Below are positions 54,079 through 60,150 of a DNA stretch of 64,000 nt, one piece after another. Each line of letters begins with the position of its first letter. Positions within the stretch are counted from its first letter, which is position 1. Below the pieces are notes generated by a model. That model was not told the origin of the DNA. It ran no database searches and saw nothing but the letters and a program-made list of their open reading frames with translations. Source of the DNA: Methylophaga sp. (GTDB taxonomy: Bacteria; Pseudomonadota; Gammaproteobacteria; Nitrosococcales; Methylophagaceae); NCBI GenBank assembly GCA_002706095.1, contig PAJP01000025.1, positions 186,001 through 250,000 on the forward strand. The letters run 5' to 3'. A program made the translations under genes and the position numbers.

Positions 54079-54318
54079 ATGAATACAAAAAAATTACCCG
54101 TTAAACTCACGTCGTATGTTTTTGCACTTTATATGGCAGGTATTATGGCCTTCTTAATGTGCTTAATTATTACTGGCGTTAATCAGGGCCTATCCTCACA
54201 CTACATCAGTGATGCCCTAAACGCATACAAAGTTGCCATGCCCGCCGCCTTTATTTGTATTCTTATTGTTAGACCTTTTGTGGCTCTTCTGGTGAAAAAA
54301 ACCGTGCATATGGCCTAA
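54079..54318 (+). CDS. DUF2798 small membrane protein
   Basis: A 79-residue protein with two hydrophobic helices (about residues 12-36 and 50-70) and the DUF2798 pattern (NAYKVAMPAAFICILIVRPFVALLVKK). AGGAG precedes the ATG. The family's function is unknown; members often lie next to LysR regulators as here. Confidence 0.88.
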   Translation: MNTKKLPVKLTSYVFALYMAGIMAFLMCLIITGVNQGLSSHYISDALNAYKVAMPAAFICILIVRPFVALLVKKTVHMA

Positions 54319-54338
54319 GTGTTCTCATACAGTGATAT

Positions 54339-54368
54339 CAAGCTCAACCATGTCTCTGGTTGAGCTTG
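54339..54368. terminator. Strong hairpin between convergent genes
   Basis: CAAGCTCAACCA and TGGTTGAGCTTG make a perfect 12-bp stem with a 6-nt loop between the ends of the DUF2798 and DNA ligase genes. Neither side has a T run, so it may end transcripts inefficiently or protect 3' ends. Confidence 0.55.
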
Positions 54369-54403
54369 TACTGCACTGAAAAAACTAAAAAAGTGAAACA
54401 GAT

Positions 54404-55270
54404 TTAATCCAGATCGGTCTCGCGAATACGCAAAAAGCGGGCAAACCGAGGCAATCCAGTTTTAGTAAACCCCTGATAACGATAGGTAATGACACTGCCG
54501 ATGGGAGGTGGGTTAATACGGTCTTGATCTGATAAGCCGCTACCGATCGAAAAGACCCGGCCTTGCTTATTTTTAACACGTAATGCGCCTAACTGATTAG
54601 TGTATTTACCTTTGCCTGGCAAATGCGCAATAACGGTGGCTTCAGCATCATCATATGGCTTGAGTTTTAATAAAGCCTGCGTTCTCCCACCGTGATGTTT
54701 AGCTGACGCCAGATGTAAAATCAGACCTTCTGCACCGTGTTCTATCTTATCTTGTAACAGGTCTTGTAAAGCCGTTTTGTTTATCAGCCGATATTGTTTA
54801 ACAGGTTTAATATGTGGCAGATTTAGTTTTGTGATTAAACTTGTGTAGTTTTGATAACGTTGTTCAAAAGGCAGTTCACGATCGGGCATATCAAACACCC
54901 GATAACTCACTTTTCGCCAAGCTTCATCATCCGGTATTTGTGTTCTTATGATGCCACTGAGCCGTGCAAAGTCTTGATGTTTAGTCCACAACTCACCATC
55001 CAGCCATACATCGGGTAGGGAAGCAGTAAACCAGTCTGGGGGGTTGATAATATTGCCGCTACGGGTCAGAAGTTGTTGACCTGTCCAGATAGCCCGTACA
55101 CCATCGAATTTTTCACTGACGAGATAGGCTGATACTGGCTCAGCCCTGTCTGGCTTATAGACACTCGCCAGTTGCACGGGTGGCATAGTCTGAGCAGCAT
55201 GAACTAGCCCATTAAGACTAAGCAGGGTGAAAATGAAAACAACAGTGATAGCACGCTGTATACGTGGCAT
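54404..55270 (-). CDS. Exported minimal ATP-dependent DNA ligase
   Basis: A 288-residue ligase with a signal peptide (about 25 residues, ending VHA) and the two-domain core of minimal bacterial ATP ligases: the AMP-accepting Lys in SEKFDGVRAIW, GELWTK, FRVFDMP-like motif III (YRVFDMPDRELPF), EGLILH and LLKLKPYDDAEA (motif V), then an OB domain. It lacks other domains. Periplasmic Lig E-type enzymes are associated with extracellular DNA or uptake; the cell's own replication uses LigA. It is 70 nt downstream of the C1-cofactor operon. Confidence 0.9.
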   Translation of the reverse strand: MPRIQRAITVVFIFTLLSLNGLVHAAQTMPPVQLASVYKPDRAEPVSAYLVSEKFDGVRAIWTGQQLLTRSGNIINPPDWFTASLPDVWLDGELWTKHQDFARLSGIIRTQIPDDEAWRKVSYRVFDMPDRELPFEQRYQNYTSLITKLNLPHIKPVKQYRLINKTALQDLLQDKIEHGAEGLILHLASAKHHGGRTQALLKLKPYDDAEATVIAHLPGKGKYTNQLGALRVKNKQGRVFSIGSGLSDQDRINPPPIGSVITYRYQGFTKTGLPRFARFLRIRETDLD

Positions 55271-55340
55271 ATTTGCCTCCTTGCAAATTAATTAATAGTA
55301 ATTGCCTCTGGCATCCTGCCAATAGACATCTTGACTCGGT

Positions 55341-56027
55341 TTACTCTAACTCTGATGCAATTGTTTGAGCTAATGTCGCTGACAGTGATGCGTTTCTTCT
55401 GCGCTCAGGACACAGAGCACTACGAAATCCCAGATAGTCGGGTTTTAATGCGCGTAGGGTAGCAATATCCTCAATGCGTAAAGCACCTGCCAAGCCACAT
55501 AAACTTTCTGCGTTTTTCACTGTGTTTACAAACGCTGTCAACGCATCAATTGACCATAAATCCAATAAAGAGCGAGCATTTTTTTCTGCGGTATCAACCA
55601 TCACACCGCTAAAACCTGCTTTTAGAACCTGTTCTATTACATCAGTTTCATAATTACGATCAGCAAATATCACAGCAATTACCGGCGTGGTGAGTTGTTT
55701 GATAACTGGCGTTAATGCTTGTAAACAGTCCGTTTGTTCTTCACCTCCGAATAAGCCAATTTTGACATAATCCACTCCTGTTCCAGCCATATTCATGATT
55801 GCCGGCTCAATGACATCAAACTGCATTGGCAAATCACCAATTGTCGCACTGGTTAGACAACGTCCCGATACCCACTTAACAATGTCTTCCACTATATCTA
55901 CAGGCAAAGCGCCTAAGGCCCCTTTTGCCGGCTGTTTCATATCAAGAATATCTGGCAGACAACCATTGAGGCTCTGAGCTTCTTCCAATGACTGTACACT
56001 GGCTAGCCATTTTGTATTATTCGACAT
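55341..56027 (-). CDS. MfnB-like (5-formylfuran-3-yl)methyl phosphate synthase
   Basis: A 228-residue TIM-barrel protein of the MfnB/DUF556 family: LASVQSLEEAQ and ILDMKQPAKGALGA with the Schiff-base-type Lys, GVDYVKIGLFG, and CGLAGALRIEDI near the end. Archaeal MfnB condenses two glyceraldehyde-3-phosphates into the furan of methanofuran. In methylotrophs a related furan cofactor (methylofuran) serves the formyltransferase/hydrolase complex. It overlaps the DUF447 gene by 11 nt at the end of the cofactor operon. Confidence 0.88.
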   Translation of the reverse strand: MSNNTKWLASVQSLEEAQSLNGCLPDILDMKQPAKGALGALPVDIVEDIVKWVSGRCLTSATIGDLPMQFDVIEPAIMNMAGTGVDYVKIGLFGGEEQTDCLQALTPVIKQLTTPVIAVIFADRNYETDVIEQVLKAGFSGVMVDTAEKNARSLLDLWSIDALTAFVNTVKNAESLCGLAGALRIEDIATLRALKPDYLGFRSALCPERRRNASLSATLAQTIASELE

Positions 56028-56595
56028 TGATACCTGCTTCTCTCACCTTTTTCATTAACCAGCCCCACGCTTCCCACTCGCGTTCACCCGCTGTTTTTTC
56101 CATACCGATGGTCAAATAGTTAATTTCATCGCGAATTTTTTGTTCTGGCAACATCGACAAACGGCTAACCAGTATGGCGGCTTCAATGACGGCACTTTGT
56201 GCACGGTTATATCCACGAAATAAGCCATGTTGCTGTTCATGTACAACATCGCCATAAAAACAGGCGCGAGGATCATCGTCATCAACATTCTGGATAGCTA
56301 TTTCTGTGTGGCTAAGTGCATTTGTTAAATAGAGACTATCTATCTTTTCACATGCTGAAGATGGCCATTGTCGGTGCCCTGTTAATGCTCCTGCAAACAC
56401 GCGTACATCATCCGTGTAGTTAATACTACATGAGCGATGACGCATTAAGTTATTGTAAGTTGTCGATGGTTTAAATGGTTTTATTTGAAAGTAACCATTT
56501 ACTTCACTAACACCCATAGGCGCATGATGTGCTGTATCATCTGCATTTTTTGTCGTCACAATAACTTCATGAATTTTTGCGGTCAGCCGTACCAC
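56017..56595 (-). CDS. DUF447 flavin-binding-like protein
   Basis: A 192-residue protein of the DUF447 family, found in methanogens and H4MPT-using methylotrophs. It opens IHEVIVTTKNADDTAHHAPMG, resembling the flavin-reductase split barrel, and has GYNRAQSAVIEAAILVSRL near the centre. It starts with GTG overlapping the upstream stop (TAGTG) with AAGGAG 7 nt before it. Function unproven; context indicates C1-cofactor synthesis. Confidence 0.88.
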   Translation of the reverse strand: MVRLTAKIHEVIVTTKNADDTAHHAPMGVSEVNGYFQIKPFKPSTTYNNLMRHRSCSINYTDDVRVFAGALTGHRQWPSSACEKIDSLYLTNALSHTEIAIQNVDDDDPRACFYGDVVHEQQHGLFRGYNRAQSAVIEAAILVSRLSMLPEQKIRDEINYLTIGMEKTAGEREWEAWGWLMKKVREAGINVE

Positions 56596-56738
56596 TAGGA
56601 TGCTCCTTTTTTATTTTTCTTAGGTTCAGCCGTACCACACGCCGTGCGAGTTTTTTTGACTTTTGGTGCATGCTCGTCACGGACGACTTTTTTCATATTC
56701 TCTCTTGGCGTATCGGTTTTATCTGCTGTACCGCAGGC
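56583..56738. repeat. Short repeats in the 3' end of the dihydropteroate synthase-like gene
   Basis: The 13-mer TCAGCCGTACCAC occurs at 56583-56595 (spanning the DUF447 start) and at 56626-56638; a degenerate copy (TCTGCTGTACCGCAGGC) is at 56722-56738. In the gene's frame the last two encode the repeated peptide ACGTA. Confidence 0.6.
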
Positions 56739-58139
56739 TCGTTCTTTCTTGGTCTTTTTCATGGTGGTACCTTCCACCTTTTGCTCTGTTAAATCTTCTT
56801 CTGCCTGATCAACGGCACACCCCCATTGTAAATCTTCATCTTGGGTATAACGCTTACCTAGTTGCCAAGCTACTTCGGCCCGGGCCAGTTCAACACCGAG
56901 ATAAAATGCATGGCCGGGATCATTTTCTACATCTAGATGGGGATAGAATTCAAATGGATCAATATCTTGCACAAGACCATCACGATTGAACATAAAAATG
57001 CCTTCTTTTGCGACTTTTATCCGGTAGTTTGGGTCTCGAATCGTGTCGGCCAAAGCCTGAATTTCATCAGCAGTATCCGTAAACGGGTGTCGTTCGTGTG
57101 ACACCAACAAGTCACCTGTAAAATCTCTTGGTAGACTATTATCCTGCTTGGCGGCAAACATCATTCGTCTCGCCACATCGGCTTCACGTATGGCCCGTCG
57201 TGCATGCGAGCTAACTTCTGTGGCTAATACACAGTTAATATTTAACTCAGAAATCATGCCAAATAACATGGCATTGATTCCGGTAGTATCCGCGTCAGTT
57301 AACTCTGTCAGATTACCTACTCCCATCATGATGGGTGCATCAGGGTATTTCCGCCGTAATTCATGGTAACGAACAATTGAGTCCGTTAAACCAAAATGAA
57401 TCGGATCTAAAATCGGATCTGCCACCCACGGTTTACCAATTTTATCCATGGCTTCCATAGCTCGCTCCAGTGAGGCAAGGGAACCTGGCTCAGCAGGAAC
57501 TAAAATTGGGACGGCGTCTGTTTCTTTTGCCAGATCAATCGTTTTTTCAGTCAAACTTAATAAATAGTCAGCACCTGCTTTGGACGCACGCTGCAGGTCA
57601 TGAATCGAAAGTGAGTCTACACTCACTTTAAAACCATTATCATGTAATGCTGCAATGGCTTCTTCCATTAATGGAAATTTTTCTTCAGGTAAACAGCCAA
57701 TATCAATAACATCCGCCCCTTGGCTAGCATAATACCGGGCACGTTCTAACAGACTTTCAATAGAGCGTTCAGGAGCATCGACGATTTCGGCAAATATTTC
57801 GACAGCGTGTTGAGATAAATCTGGTTTTTTACGGGCTTTACCAAACTGCATTGGTAGATCTTTGATTTCATCTGGGCCACGCGTAATTTTAATACCCAGA
57901 TCTTGGCTTAGTAGCTCGAGGTCTCCTCGACAGCGGCCTGGGACTATGATTTCATCAAACCCTTCAAAATCTTCAGGCTTGAGTCGTCTACCTATCATTT
58001 TATCTGTCATCAATGCTGCGACAGACACGCCTATCTGATGAACTCGATACTCAAAGGGGAGTGGCGCCATTTCTTCCAACACTTTATGCACACTGGGCTC
58101 AGCCAGTTTGCCTGTAAGAAATAATATCTTCCTCGCCAT
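56595..58139 (-). CDS. Methanopterin-type dihydropteroate synthase homologue (DUF6513)
   Basis: A 514-residue protein. An N-terminal domain (about 1-130, ILFLTGKLAEPSVHKVLEEM) precedes a dihydropteroate-synthase-like TIM barrel (about 140-460: GADVIDIGCLPEEKFP, SVDSLSIHDLQRA, PIMMGVGNLTELTDADT). Archaeal relatives of this type couple hydroxymethyl-dihydropterin to the ribofuranosylaminobenzene phosphate of methanopterin. The last 70 residues are a Lys-rich tail with two ACGTA units, apparently unordered. It is 8 nt after the flavoprotein gene. Confidence 0.88.
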   Translation of the reverse strand: MARKILFLTGKLAEPSVHKVLEEMAPLPFEYRVHQIGVSVAALMTDKMIGRRLKPEDFEGFDEIIVPGRCRGDLELLSQDLGIKITRGPDEIKDLPMQFGKARKKPDLSQHAVEIFAEIVDAPERSIESLLERARYYASQGADVIDIGCLPEEKFPLMEEAIAALHDNGFKVSVDSLSIHDLQRASKAGADYLLSLTEKTIDLAKETDAVPILVPAEPGSLASLERAMEAMDKIGKPWVADPILDPIHFGLTDSIVRYHELRRKYPDAPIMMGVGNLTELTDADTTGINAMLFGMISELNINCVLATEVSSHARRAIREADVARRMMFAAKQDNSLPRDFTGDLLVSHERHPFTDTADEIQALADTIRDPNYRIKVAKEGIFMFNRDGLVQDIDPFEFYPHLDVENDPGHAFYLGVELARAEVAWQLGKRYTQDEDLQWGCAVDQAEEDLTEQKVEGTTMKKTKKERACGTADKTDTPRENMKKVVRDEHAPKVKKTRTACGTAEPKKNKKGAS

Positions 58140-58147
58140 CAGAGGTA

Positions 58148-58696
58148 CTAACCGACCTCAGCCAGACGTTGCTTCAGTACATTGAATAATTCATCAGCAT
58201 TATCTACCACGGTTGTTGCCTCGAACTGTTTTAATGTAGCCGTATGTTGTAGATCTATCGCTCTGGGTGAAACATGCACAATTCTGTCTGGTGCAGGGGT
58301 ATCTATTTCTGGTTCAGAATCACAGGCGAGCACAATGCTTGGTATACGACATTTTCCTGCTTGGGCATATATATTCGTTACCAAAGTATCAGATAAGCCC
58401 ATGACCATCTTAGCAACGGTGTTAGACGTAGCTGGAGCTACAACAAGACTATGATAATCACCTCGATAAAATAAACCGACTGGCGGTGAGCTCGCCGCTC
58501 TATCACGGTAGACTCGTCCCTCTGGTACGAATGATTTTGGATCATAGCCATACATCCTTACAACTTCTTCACCAGCTCGGCTGTAAAACAAGTCCACGTT
58601 ATCTAACTCATGGACAATTTCCAAACATTCTTTCAGATAATGTCCTGAGCCTGTAATAGCCCAAGCCAGACGTGGTTTTTCAGGCCTTGCTTGCAT
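58148..58696 (-). CDS. Archaeal-type flavoprotein (DmrB/AfpA-like)
   Basis: A 182-residue flavoprotein of the Lot6/DFP-like fold: WAITGSGHYLKECLEIV at the start, PPVGLFYRGDYHSLVVAPATSNTVAKMVMGLSDTLVTN (FMN-binding) and two Cys (GKCRIP, LACDSE). Related proteins reduce dihydromethanopterin to H4MPT or act in its biosynthesis. It is the first gene of the four-gene cofactor operon. The exact step is uncertain. Confidence 0.85.
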   Translation of the reverse strand: MQARPEKPRLAWAITGSGHYLKECLEIVHELDNVDLFYSRAGEEVVRMYGYDPKSFVPEGRVYRDRAASSPPVGLFYRGDYHSLVVAPATSNTVAKMVMGLSDTLVTNIYAQAGKCRIPSIVLACDSEPEIDTPAPDRIVHVSPRAIDLQHTATLKQFEATTVVDNADELFNVLKQRLAEVG

Positions 58697-58836
58697 TTTG
58701 TTTCTCTGTGAATAAGTTAAGACGTAAATTTTGCCAGACTAAGTACACTTAGTAAAAATAAGATAGGTTTTATAGGGTTTTTTACGTTAAAATCGATAAC
58801 TCATTGTAATTTTGCGTCAGATTGGAGTCTTTGCGA

Positions 58837-60150
58837 ATGTCTAACAGTATTCCAAAAATTGTGGTTGTCGGAGGCGGGGCAGGTGGTCTTGAATTAGTCA
58901 CTAAACTCGGCAAGAAGTTGGGTAAAAAAGGCAAAGCTGAAATTACGCTTGTCGATAATACACATACACACATATGGAAACCGCTTCTTCATGAGGTTGC
59001 TGCTGGTACACTCGATTCGCATGAAGATGAAATTGAGTACTTGAGTCAAGCCAATGCCAGTGGATTTCGTTTCCGTTTGGGTAAAATGGATGGCTTAGAC
59101 AGAGACCGTAAGACTATCTCTCTGGCCCCCACGCTTAATCAAGACGGGGTGGAAATTATTCCACGCCGTGAGTTTGAATACGACTACCTTGTTATATCTG
59201 TAGGTAGCGTTAGTCATGATTTTGGTATCAAAGGTGTTCGTGATCACTGCTTATTCCTTGATACAACCAAGCAAGCCGAATCTTTCCAAAACAAATTACT
59301 TGAGGCCTATCTTCGCGCGCACACTCAAGGTAAGCCTTTGCACGAAGGTCAGTTGAACATTGCTATTGTTGGTGCAGGCGCCACAGGTATTGAGCTTAGT
59401 GCTCAACTTCACGAAGTTTCTCACTTACTCACAGCTTATGGGCTTGATGAAGTACAGCCACAAGACGTCAAGATTAGCATTATTGAAGCAGCCAATCGTG
59501 TTTTACCTGGCTTACCAGAAAATCTCTCTGCGGCTACAACGGATGAATTGACGAAGTTAGGCGTTGATGTTCTCACTGGAGAACGCGTTGTTGAGGTCAA
59601 TGACAAGGCTATATTCACAGAAAGTGGAAAAACCATTCCGGCTGCCATTAAAGTATGGGCGGCAGGTATCAAAGCGCCAGAGTTCTTAAAAGATATCGCT
59701 GGACTTGAAACCAATTGGATGAACCAATTGGTTGTAAGACAAACATTACAAACGACCTTAGATGATGATATCTATGCCATCGGTGATTGTTGTGCATGTA
59801 AGTGGCAGGGACATGATGAGAACGTACCACCACGTGCTCAAGCAGCTCATCAAATGGCATCTGTTGTGTATAAATCTATTCGTAATCGCATGGCAGGTAA
59901 GGTTGCCCCTGAATTTGAATACCATGACTATGGCTCACTAGTATCGTTAGGTAAATACAGTACTGTTGGTAATTTGATGGGTAACCTAAGTAAAGGTAGC
60001 ATGATGATTGAGGGTTTCATGGCGCGCCTGATGTATCTTTCTTTATATAAGATGCACCAAGTTGCACTGTTTGGTCCTTTCCGGGTTGCTATGCTCTCTC
60101 TGTCGCATATCTTCAGACGTAGTGTTCACCCTAAAATCAAACTACACTAA
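58837..60150 (+). CDS. Type II NADH dehydrogenase
   Basis: A 437-residue FAD enzyme from the ATG at 58837 (GGAG 11 nt upstream). FAD motif VVVGGGAGGLELVTKLGKKL, NAD motif IAIVGAGATGIELSAQL, and YAIGDCCACKW; the C-terminal amphipathic region (MARLMYLSLYKMHQVALFG) is the membrane anchor. It passes electrons from NADH to quinone without proton pumping. Confidence 0.92.
   Translation: MSNSIPKIVVVGGGAGGLELVTKLGKKLGKKGKAEITLVDNTHTHIWKPLLHEVAAGTLDSHEDEIEYLSQANASGFRFRLGKMDGLDRDRKTISLAPTLNQDGVEIIPRREFEYDYLVISVGSVSHDFGIKGVRDHCLFLDTTKQAESFQNKLLEAYLRAHTQGKPLHEGQLNIAIVGAGATGIELSAQLHEVSHLLTAYGLDEVQPQDVKISIIEAANRVLPGLPENLSAATTDELTKLGVDVLTGERVVEVNDKAIFTESGKTIPAAIKVWAAGIKAPEFLKDIAGLETNWMNQLVVRQTLQTTLDDDIYAIGDCCACKWQGHDENVPPRAQAAHQMASVVYKSIRNRMAGKVAPEFEYHDYGSLVSLGKYSTVGNLMGNLSKGSMMIEGFMARLMYLSLYKMHQVALFGPFRVAMLSLSHIFRRSVHPKIKLH

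Follow-up and report, generated by a model that had tools for sequence, protein, structure and literature searches.

What does a DUF447 protein do when its gene lies between genes of two different cofactor branches? The question is raised by a locus of Methylophaga sp., located in a stretch of 64,000 nucleotides (positions 186,001 to 250,000 of contig PAJP01000025.1; the window), where four genes of one-carbon (C1) cofactor synthesis follow each other closely on the minus strand. These are afpA/dmrB (58148-58696), encoding a flavoprotein that is a putative dihydromethanopterin reductase, the enzyme of the last step in tetrahydromethanopterin (H4MPT) synthesis; orf19 (56595-58139), encoding a dihydropteroate-synthase-like protein with a DUF6513 domain and a predicted pterin-binding TIM barrel; orf20 (56017-56595), encoding the DUF447 split-barrel protein, a member of a family that binds flavin mononucleotide (FMN); and orf22/mfnB (55341-56027), encoding a predicted (5-formylfuran-3-yl)methyl phosphate synthase. 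Of these genes, only mfnB falls on the furan side, the other three pointing to pterin synthesis. A preliminary description of the locus had DUF447 without a defined step, and indeed we found no paper in the open-licence literature searched that assigns it one or that states its pairing with a CitG-family gene, described below. We propose that DUF447 very probably belongs to the methanopterin branch. That it is the FMN enzyme acting in this branch between MptG and a CitG-like step, where it would reduce ribofuranosyl-aniline to 1-deoxyribitol, is a proposal for which, branch and step taken together, we consider the case evenly balanced. The proposal builds on the fold of the protein, its relation to FMN-bound structures, its co-occurrence with other genes and its gene order, and from these we infer its chemistry, its substrate and its place in the order of steps, as well as the roles of Orf19 and of the CitG-like protein.

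The DUF447 protein matches both Pfam domains of its family well above their cut-offs (PF04289, 77 against 24 bits; PF20766, 61 against 25 bits), and its structural model (predicted local distance difference test, pLDDT, 94) aligns over nearly the whole chain with 3b5m of Rhodopirellula baltica (Z 24.7), 2nr4 of Methanosarcina mazei (MM1853; Z 21.8) and 2iml of Archaeoglobus fulgidus (Z 20.5), and over its first two thirds only with 2ptf (MTH_863; Z 15.4). Identity to these four structures is 18-29%, and their titles give no reaction, those of 2nr4, 2iml and 2ptf stating the binding of FMN (riboflavin 5'-phosphate). The model thus describes the window protein as a predicted FMN split barrel like the solved FMN-bound members. 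Beyond the DUF447 structures, its fold neighbours are mostly flavin reductases and FMN-binding proteins.

Among bacteria, distribution does not tell the two branches apart. Methylophaga is a gammaproteobacterium, and in a panel of 114 genomes of this class the pathway is found in 14 (G000, G002, G008, G011, G028, G039, G044, G055, G066, G070, G084, G085, G091 and G096). MfnB and MptG are present in all 14 (MptG over its cut-off in 13), DUF447 is over its cut-off in 13, the fourteenth, G070, having a C-terminal fragment at a contig end beside MfnB, and Mch and the orf7/CitG-like protein are each present in 13, the exception being G008 (75% complete). The co-occurrence of DUF447 with mch, which the preliminary description had offered as a check, therefore holds. 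Three weak matches outside these genomes, DUF447 in G100 (19.9 bits, two stops) and MptG in G054 (25 bits) and G057 (19 bits), were set aside as spurious. As DUF447, MptG, MfnB, Mch and orf7 all occur in the same 14 genomes, bacteria cannot separate the pterin from the furan branch. Gene order was followed in 29 other bacterial loci, all chosen for holding DUF447, some of them incomplete and some possibly duplicated between the two locus sources, with the best tblastn piece retained per query and locus. In all 29 orf20 and orf22 adjoin, orf19 lies directly before orf20 in 27 (about 3 kb separate the two in L020, and no orf19 was seen nearby in L029) and afpA directly before orf19 in 13. With the first two adjacencies so frequent the grouping is not due to chance, and pterin and furan genes side by side are the usual arrangement in bacterial loci.

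Archaea do separate the branches. Among 14 named control genomes, DUF447 and MptG match in the same four archaea and CitG in these four and in E. coli, with MfnB found only in the two methanogens; in Haloferax volcanii and Sulfolobus acidocaldarius, matches to DUF447, MptG and CitG are joined by none to MfnB, and the latter has no Mch match either. A panel of 146 archaeal genomes comes from the phylum of an Archaeoglobus genome (G114), which we take to be Halobacteriota. DUF447 was found in 141 of these genomes, MptG in 142 (134 over cut-off), CitG in 140, MfnB in 114 and TIGR00284 in 125 (111 over cut-off). Of the 32 genomes lacking MfnB, 29 have DUF447, 29 have MptG (27 over cut-off), and in 29 CitG and DUF447 are adjacent; since DUF447 is so consistently kept where MfnB is missing, it is not tied to the furan branch, and a furan role was rejected as our principal interpretation on these grounds. 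In three genomes (G133, G174 and G229) DUF447, MptG, CitG and MfnB are absent together; G193, G203 and G213 lack CitG. Fisher tests over the panel, in which kinship is ignored, associate DUF447 with MptG (p 8e-5 with all MptG matches, 0.004 with those over cut-off) and with CitG (p 4e-4), the value for MfnB being 0.07. In addition, MptG is present in 11 of a separate set of 12 genomes behind named DUF447 loci.

The gene order in archaea joins DUF447 to a CitG-family gene. Both genes occur in 138 archaeal genomes, and in 125 of these DUF447 lies directly behind the CitG-family gene on the same strand; in 11 of the other 13 the two are on different contigs, and in G148 and G178 they are far apart on one contig. 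In this count, matches in several pieces are represented by one piece (for CitG in G169, G179, G184, G208 and G214) and weak second DUF447 matches are omitted. Of 91 archaeal loci, 63 of them named and picked up by way of DUF447 and 28 taken from genomes that lack MfnB, 90 hold the CitG component and 88 that of DUF447. Three archaeal CitG members score 200-220 bits against PF01874, which confirms them. Two that were scanned with NCBIfam models scored below 30 bits against the CitG and MdcB equivalog cut-offs of more than 270, and the orf7-like protein of our own genome is also far under these cut-offs; the proteins are therefore CitG-like and need not act on dephospho-CoA. CitG itself forms an alpha-ribosyl bond in the synthesis of the citrate lyase cofactor. 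In many archaeal loci the CitG-DUF447 pair directly follows the gene of a Dus-like barrel protein of the MJ0144 family/methanogenesis marker 9 (L156:10249-11025; L043:8112-9098). CofD of F420 synthesis (L156:10980-11990) is found in the same 19-kb loci, its component being present in 24 of the 91, including all 22 haloarchaea-like ones.

How would DUF447 fit into the pathway? The finished cofactor carries an open 1-deoxyribitol at the ribofuranose position and a further ribose on it. According to White's pathway work, such a sugar reduction reportedly occurs in the pathway, and we know of no gene that is assigned to this step. MptG would start this arm by joining p-aminobenzoate and phosphoribosyl pyrophosphate into ribofuranosyl-aniline phosphate, the reaction described for it (PMC6787355). 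Orf19 would join the pterin to the ribosylated aniline formed by MptG. As the MptG product is a ribofuranosyl compound whereas the end product has deoxyribitol and ribose, a reduction and a ribosyl transfer are required after MptG, and DUF447 and the CitG-like protein, which form a pair in archaea and which nearly all pathway genomes examined possess, fit those two steps. DUF447 would open and reduce the ribofuranosyl-aniline ring to 1-deoxyribitol in an FMNH2-dependent reaction: helped by the para-amino group, the benzylic C1'-O bond may break to give an aza-quinone methide, and this would accept a hydride from the reduced FMN. The CitG-like enzyme (orf7) would then attach the second ribose to the freed ribitol and AfpA/DmrB would reduce dihydromethanopterin to the tetrahydro form, MfnB making the furan precursor of methylofuran. 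Taken by itself, the reduction of the ribofuranose to deoxyribitol is assigned to DUF447 only tentatively. The final dihydromethanopterin reductase differs by lineage, being DmrA, AfpA/DmrB or DmrX (PMC6193120), and as this last enzyme varies, a constant flavoprotein such as DUF447 better fits a different step that the lineages share.

Other explanations have to be weighed against this proposal. The arrangement in bacteria, where orf20 and orf22 never part in the 29 loci and DUF447 and MfnB have one distribution in the class panel, would suit a methylofuran enzyme that acts with the MfnB encoded next to it; given that DUF447 persists in 29 of the 32 archaeal genomes in which MfnB is missing, and likewise in the Haloferax and Sulfolobus controls, we consider such an enzyme highly improbable. 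The flavin reductases and FMN-binding proteins that make up most of the fold neighbourhood could instead suggest the role of a dihydropterin reductase for DUF447, or that of a flavin reductase feeding electrons to AfpA/DmrB for the last H4MPT step, and orf20 does run together with afpA in the window, as afpA does with orf19 in 13 of the 29 other loci. In the remaining 16, several of which are incomplete, no afpA was seen immediately ahead of orf19, and unrelated enzymes of different lineages already serve as dihydromethanopterin reductase; we regard this explanation as unlikely. It is also conceivable that in archaea the Dus-like barrel protein reduces the sugar, with DUF447 taking another step, for example as partner in the CitG-like ribosyl transfer: for 55 of 93 CitG-component open reading frames (ORFs), the best upstream neighbour is a component in which TIGR00736 and TIGR03277 proteins are included. 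DUF447 is common to bacteria and archaea, however, and none of 15 proteins scanned from two other cofactor clusters of our own genome, a sample and not a genome-wide search, is Dus-like, so that we hold this quite unlikely. Finally, MptG, the CitG-like protein and DUF447 may make a compound that is not a C1 carrier, the methylotroph and methanogen pathway having borrowed them. The haloarchaea-like genomes discussed below, which hold all three without MfnB and TIGR00284, and the Sulfolobus control, which has all three with no Mch or MfnB match, would agree with this; in the class panel, on the other hand, genomes with DUF447 or MptG over cut-off always have MfnB, and always Mch except for the incomplete G008, and such a borrowing appears to us hardly probable. 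A structural role was also considered, as DUF58/DUF447 proteins have been proposed to aid cannulae formation in Pyrodictiaceae (PMC13140500, 2026). A word search of that paper found no mention of methanopterin; the role does not fit with the wide spread of DUF447 and its link to CitG, and it was rejected.

Several observations weigh against our assignment of DUF447 to a reductive step of the methanopterin branch. DUF447 stands beside MfnB in every bacterial locus read, where the branches are inseparable by distribution. In archaea, G206 has DUF447 without MptG, G141 and G218 have MptG and CitG without DUF447, and G115 (Archaeoglobales, L040) is the one of the 12 genomes behind named DUF447 loci with no MptG match. 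The archaeal association leans on few absences (5 genomes without DUF447 and 4 without MptG) with kinship ignored, as it is in the 125 of 138 count of CitG-DUF447 pairs. A second flavoenzyme-like family, the Dus-like proteins of TIGR00736/TIGR03277, is often part of the same archaeal gene run, and the nearest folds outside DUF447 are general flavin reductases, which possibly are mere suppliers of reduced flavin. Moreover, DUF447 also occurs in haloarchaea-like genomes, whereas the C1 carrier ascribed to haloarchaea is tetrahydrofolate (PMC8305020).

The last point deserves closer attention. The genomes in question (L156-L177 and L184-L192) lack MfnB and keep MptG, the CitG-like protein and DUF447, and most of them are also without TIGR00284. 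As the Haloferax control shows the identical pattern, genomes with neither MfnB nor TIGR00284 that retain the other three genes are read as haloarchaea-like. Tetrahydrofolates have been shown in some haloarchaea (PMC3261824), the enzymes specific to methanopterin synthesis are held to be absent from them, and the MptG homologue HVO_2628 is thought likely not to catalyse the MptG reaction (PMC8305020). The haloarchaeal MptG of L184 exceeds the cut-off of TIGR00144 (162 against 113.5 bits) and stays below that of the stricter NF040726 (170 against 328), and no pterin gene was found among the four of its neighbours that were scanned. In 17 MptG rows, in which the positions were placed by motif matching, the p-aminobenzoate-site Asp (D19 of MTH0830) is replaced by Asn in 9 of 9 haloarchaea-like rows and is Asp in the other 8, whereas the Arg (R26 of MTH0830) is kept in all 17. 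D19 has been named as the p-aminobenzoate-site Asp in MTH0830, and its Asn variant retains some activity (PMC6787355). One could imagine an ancient core of three enzymes, MptG, DUF447 and the CitG-like protein, assembling the deoxyribitol-ribose arm of a carrier, with DUF447 being an FMN-dependent ring-opening reductase and the CitG-like protein using the alpha-ribosyl chemistry of citrate lyase cofactor synthesis; haloarchaea would still run this core and make an undescribed methanopterin-like compound with it. We consider this doubtful. Still, that these three genes are kept together leads one to ask what purpose they serve in haloarchaea.

The three other proteins of the locus agree at family level with the preliminary description, as does DUF447. 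AfpA matches PF02441 at 66 bits and aligns near full length (residues 8-179 of 182; phmmer E 2.8e-51) with 3wis_A, entitled 'Putative dihydromethanopterin reductase (AfpA)'; the window protein is in this respect like AfpA/DmrB, an FMN-containing dihydromethanopterin reductase (PMC6193120). Its scores are below the curated cut-offs of two archaeal models (TIGR02699 archaeo_AfpA, 94 against 192 bits; TIGR02700, 110 against 251) and it is therefore not filed under them. Orf19 matches PF20123 at 126 bits and, below cut-off, PF00809 at 20 bits, and with 220 bits against a cut-off of 257 it resembles the dihydropteroate synthase-like proteins of TIGR00284 and is not filed as a member. Searching its sequence against the PDB gave nothing up to E 0.1. 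Its AlphaFold model, of moderate confidence (pLDDT 78, predicted TM score, pTM, 0.59), has dihydropteroate synthases as its best PDB folds (top row with a TM score by target of 0.65 at 15% identity), which indicates a predicted dihydropteroate synthase fold, a pterin-binding TIM barrel. As methyltetrahydrofolate-binding methyltransferase domains are also among the matches, this fold points to pterin binding and to no single reaction. The C-terminus of Orf19, which ends at 56595 (window 56595-56830), is a lysine-rich tail of about 78 residues with very low model confidence, carrying two copies of the cysteine-containing motif ACGTA(D/E). MfnB matches PF04476 at 239 bits against a cut-off of 22 and aligns with MJ1099 of Methanocaldococcus jannaschii (4rc1; phmmer E 4.1e-22, residues 10-213 of 228). 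Its K31 and K149 align with two lysines of MJ1099, K27 and K155 when the native number is read as the chain number minus 7, which we take to be the catalytic ones. The expected product of the window enzyme is a precursor of bacterial methylofuran, that of the M. jannaschii enzyme belonging to methanofuran. MfnB is under the curated cut-offs of four models (NF002576, 262 against 297 bits; NF002574, 180 against 286; NF002575, 117 against 304; NF002573, 108 against 341) and hence is not filed under these.

We take orf19 and orf20 of the window to be of the same families as the published genes of these names, for which the published passages name no family. The preliminary description saw in the locus a union of pterin and furan branches; the mixture is there, and it is not new, since methylotrophs are already known to carry it as the 'archaeal-like' C1 island (PMC3615186, PMC8141765), in which orf22 is the MfnB homologue (PMC8141765). 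The gene cluster is thus a known one and the four genes are a conserved part of this island. Like the window, the islands of Methylosinus trichosporium OB3b and Methylorubrum extorquens hold pterin and furan families together. The order in the window is afpA-orf19-orf20-orf22, whereas that of M. trichosporium is orf19-orf20-afpA-orf21-orf22 (PMC3615186), and, unlike in M. trichosporium, the orf21-like gene for an amino acid kinase is on another contig. In one locus a canonical dihydropteroate synthase gene (L025:15878-16705; PF00809, 299 bits) directly precedes orf19-orf20-orf22, so that the two types of pterin-binding enzyme have adjacent genes there.

Much of the remaining pathway is encoded elsewhere in the Methylophaga genome. 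One stretch of another contig (L032) holds mch, a gene for a RimK-type glutamate ligase (orf5-like), the CitG-family gene (orf7-like), fae, genes for an MfnD/OrfY-like ATP-grasp protein and a hydantoinase_A protein (orf9/MfnF-like), a pabB-like gene and genes for an amino acid kinase (orf21/MfnE-like) and a pyridoxal phosphate-dependent decarboxylase; the orf names are those of the published scheme as we presume them to apply, matched by family and with orthology at the level of family only. Near the beginning of the contig that holds the window (L031:4167-7022), two mtdB-like genes for Mpt_N dehydrogenases enclose mptG.

In the window, the genes overlap or nearly so, as had been noted for this place: afpA and orf19 are 8 bases apart, orf19 and orf20 overlap by 1 base (TAG/GTG) and orf20 and mfnB by 11. 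A ribosome-binding-like AAGGAG (56603-56608, minus strand) is read 7 bases before the GTG of orf20. The region 54002-60196 matches Methylophaga sulfidovorans DSM 11578 (L109) at 84% DNA identity, and the locus matches M. aminisulfidivorans (L112) at 77%. Compared with three Methylophaga loci, differences in all four ORFs are concentrated at third codon positions, indicating that all four are coding. Co-transcription, as proposed before, is likely, the spacing pointing to a single transcript. A scan of 54200-59200 found six terminator-like sites, all on the plus strand and none on the minus strand, and promoter-like sites that were no commoner than in shuffles (9 against a mean of 10.7). A DNA-ligase-like gene (54404-55270) starts 70 bases after mfnB on the same strand, with its own AAGGAGG and a beginning that by eye resembles a signal peptide. 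Given this proximity and the lack of minus-strand terminator-like sites in the scanned region, the transcript may continue past mfnB into that gene.

For a methylotroph such as Methylophaga the operon is an ordinary one. Its value is that it offers a testable place for DUF447 in a cofactor pathway that is central to both methanogenesis and methylotrophy.

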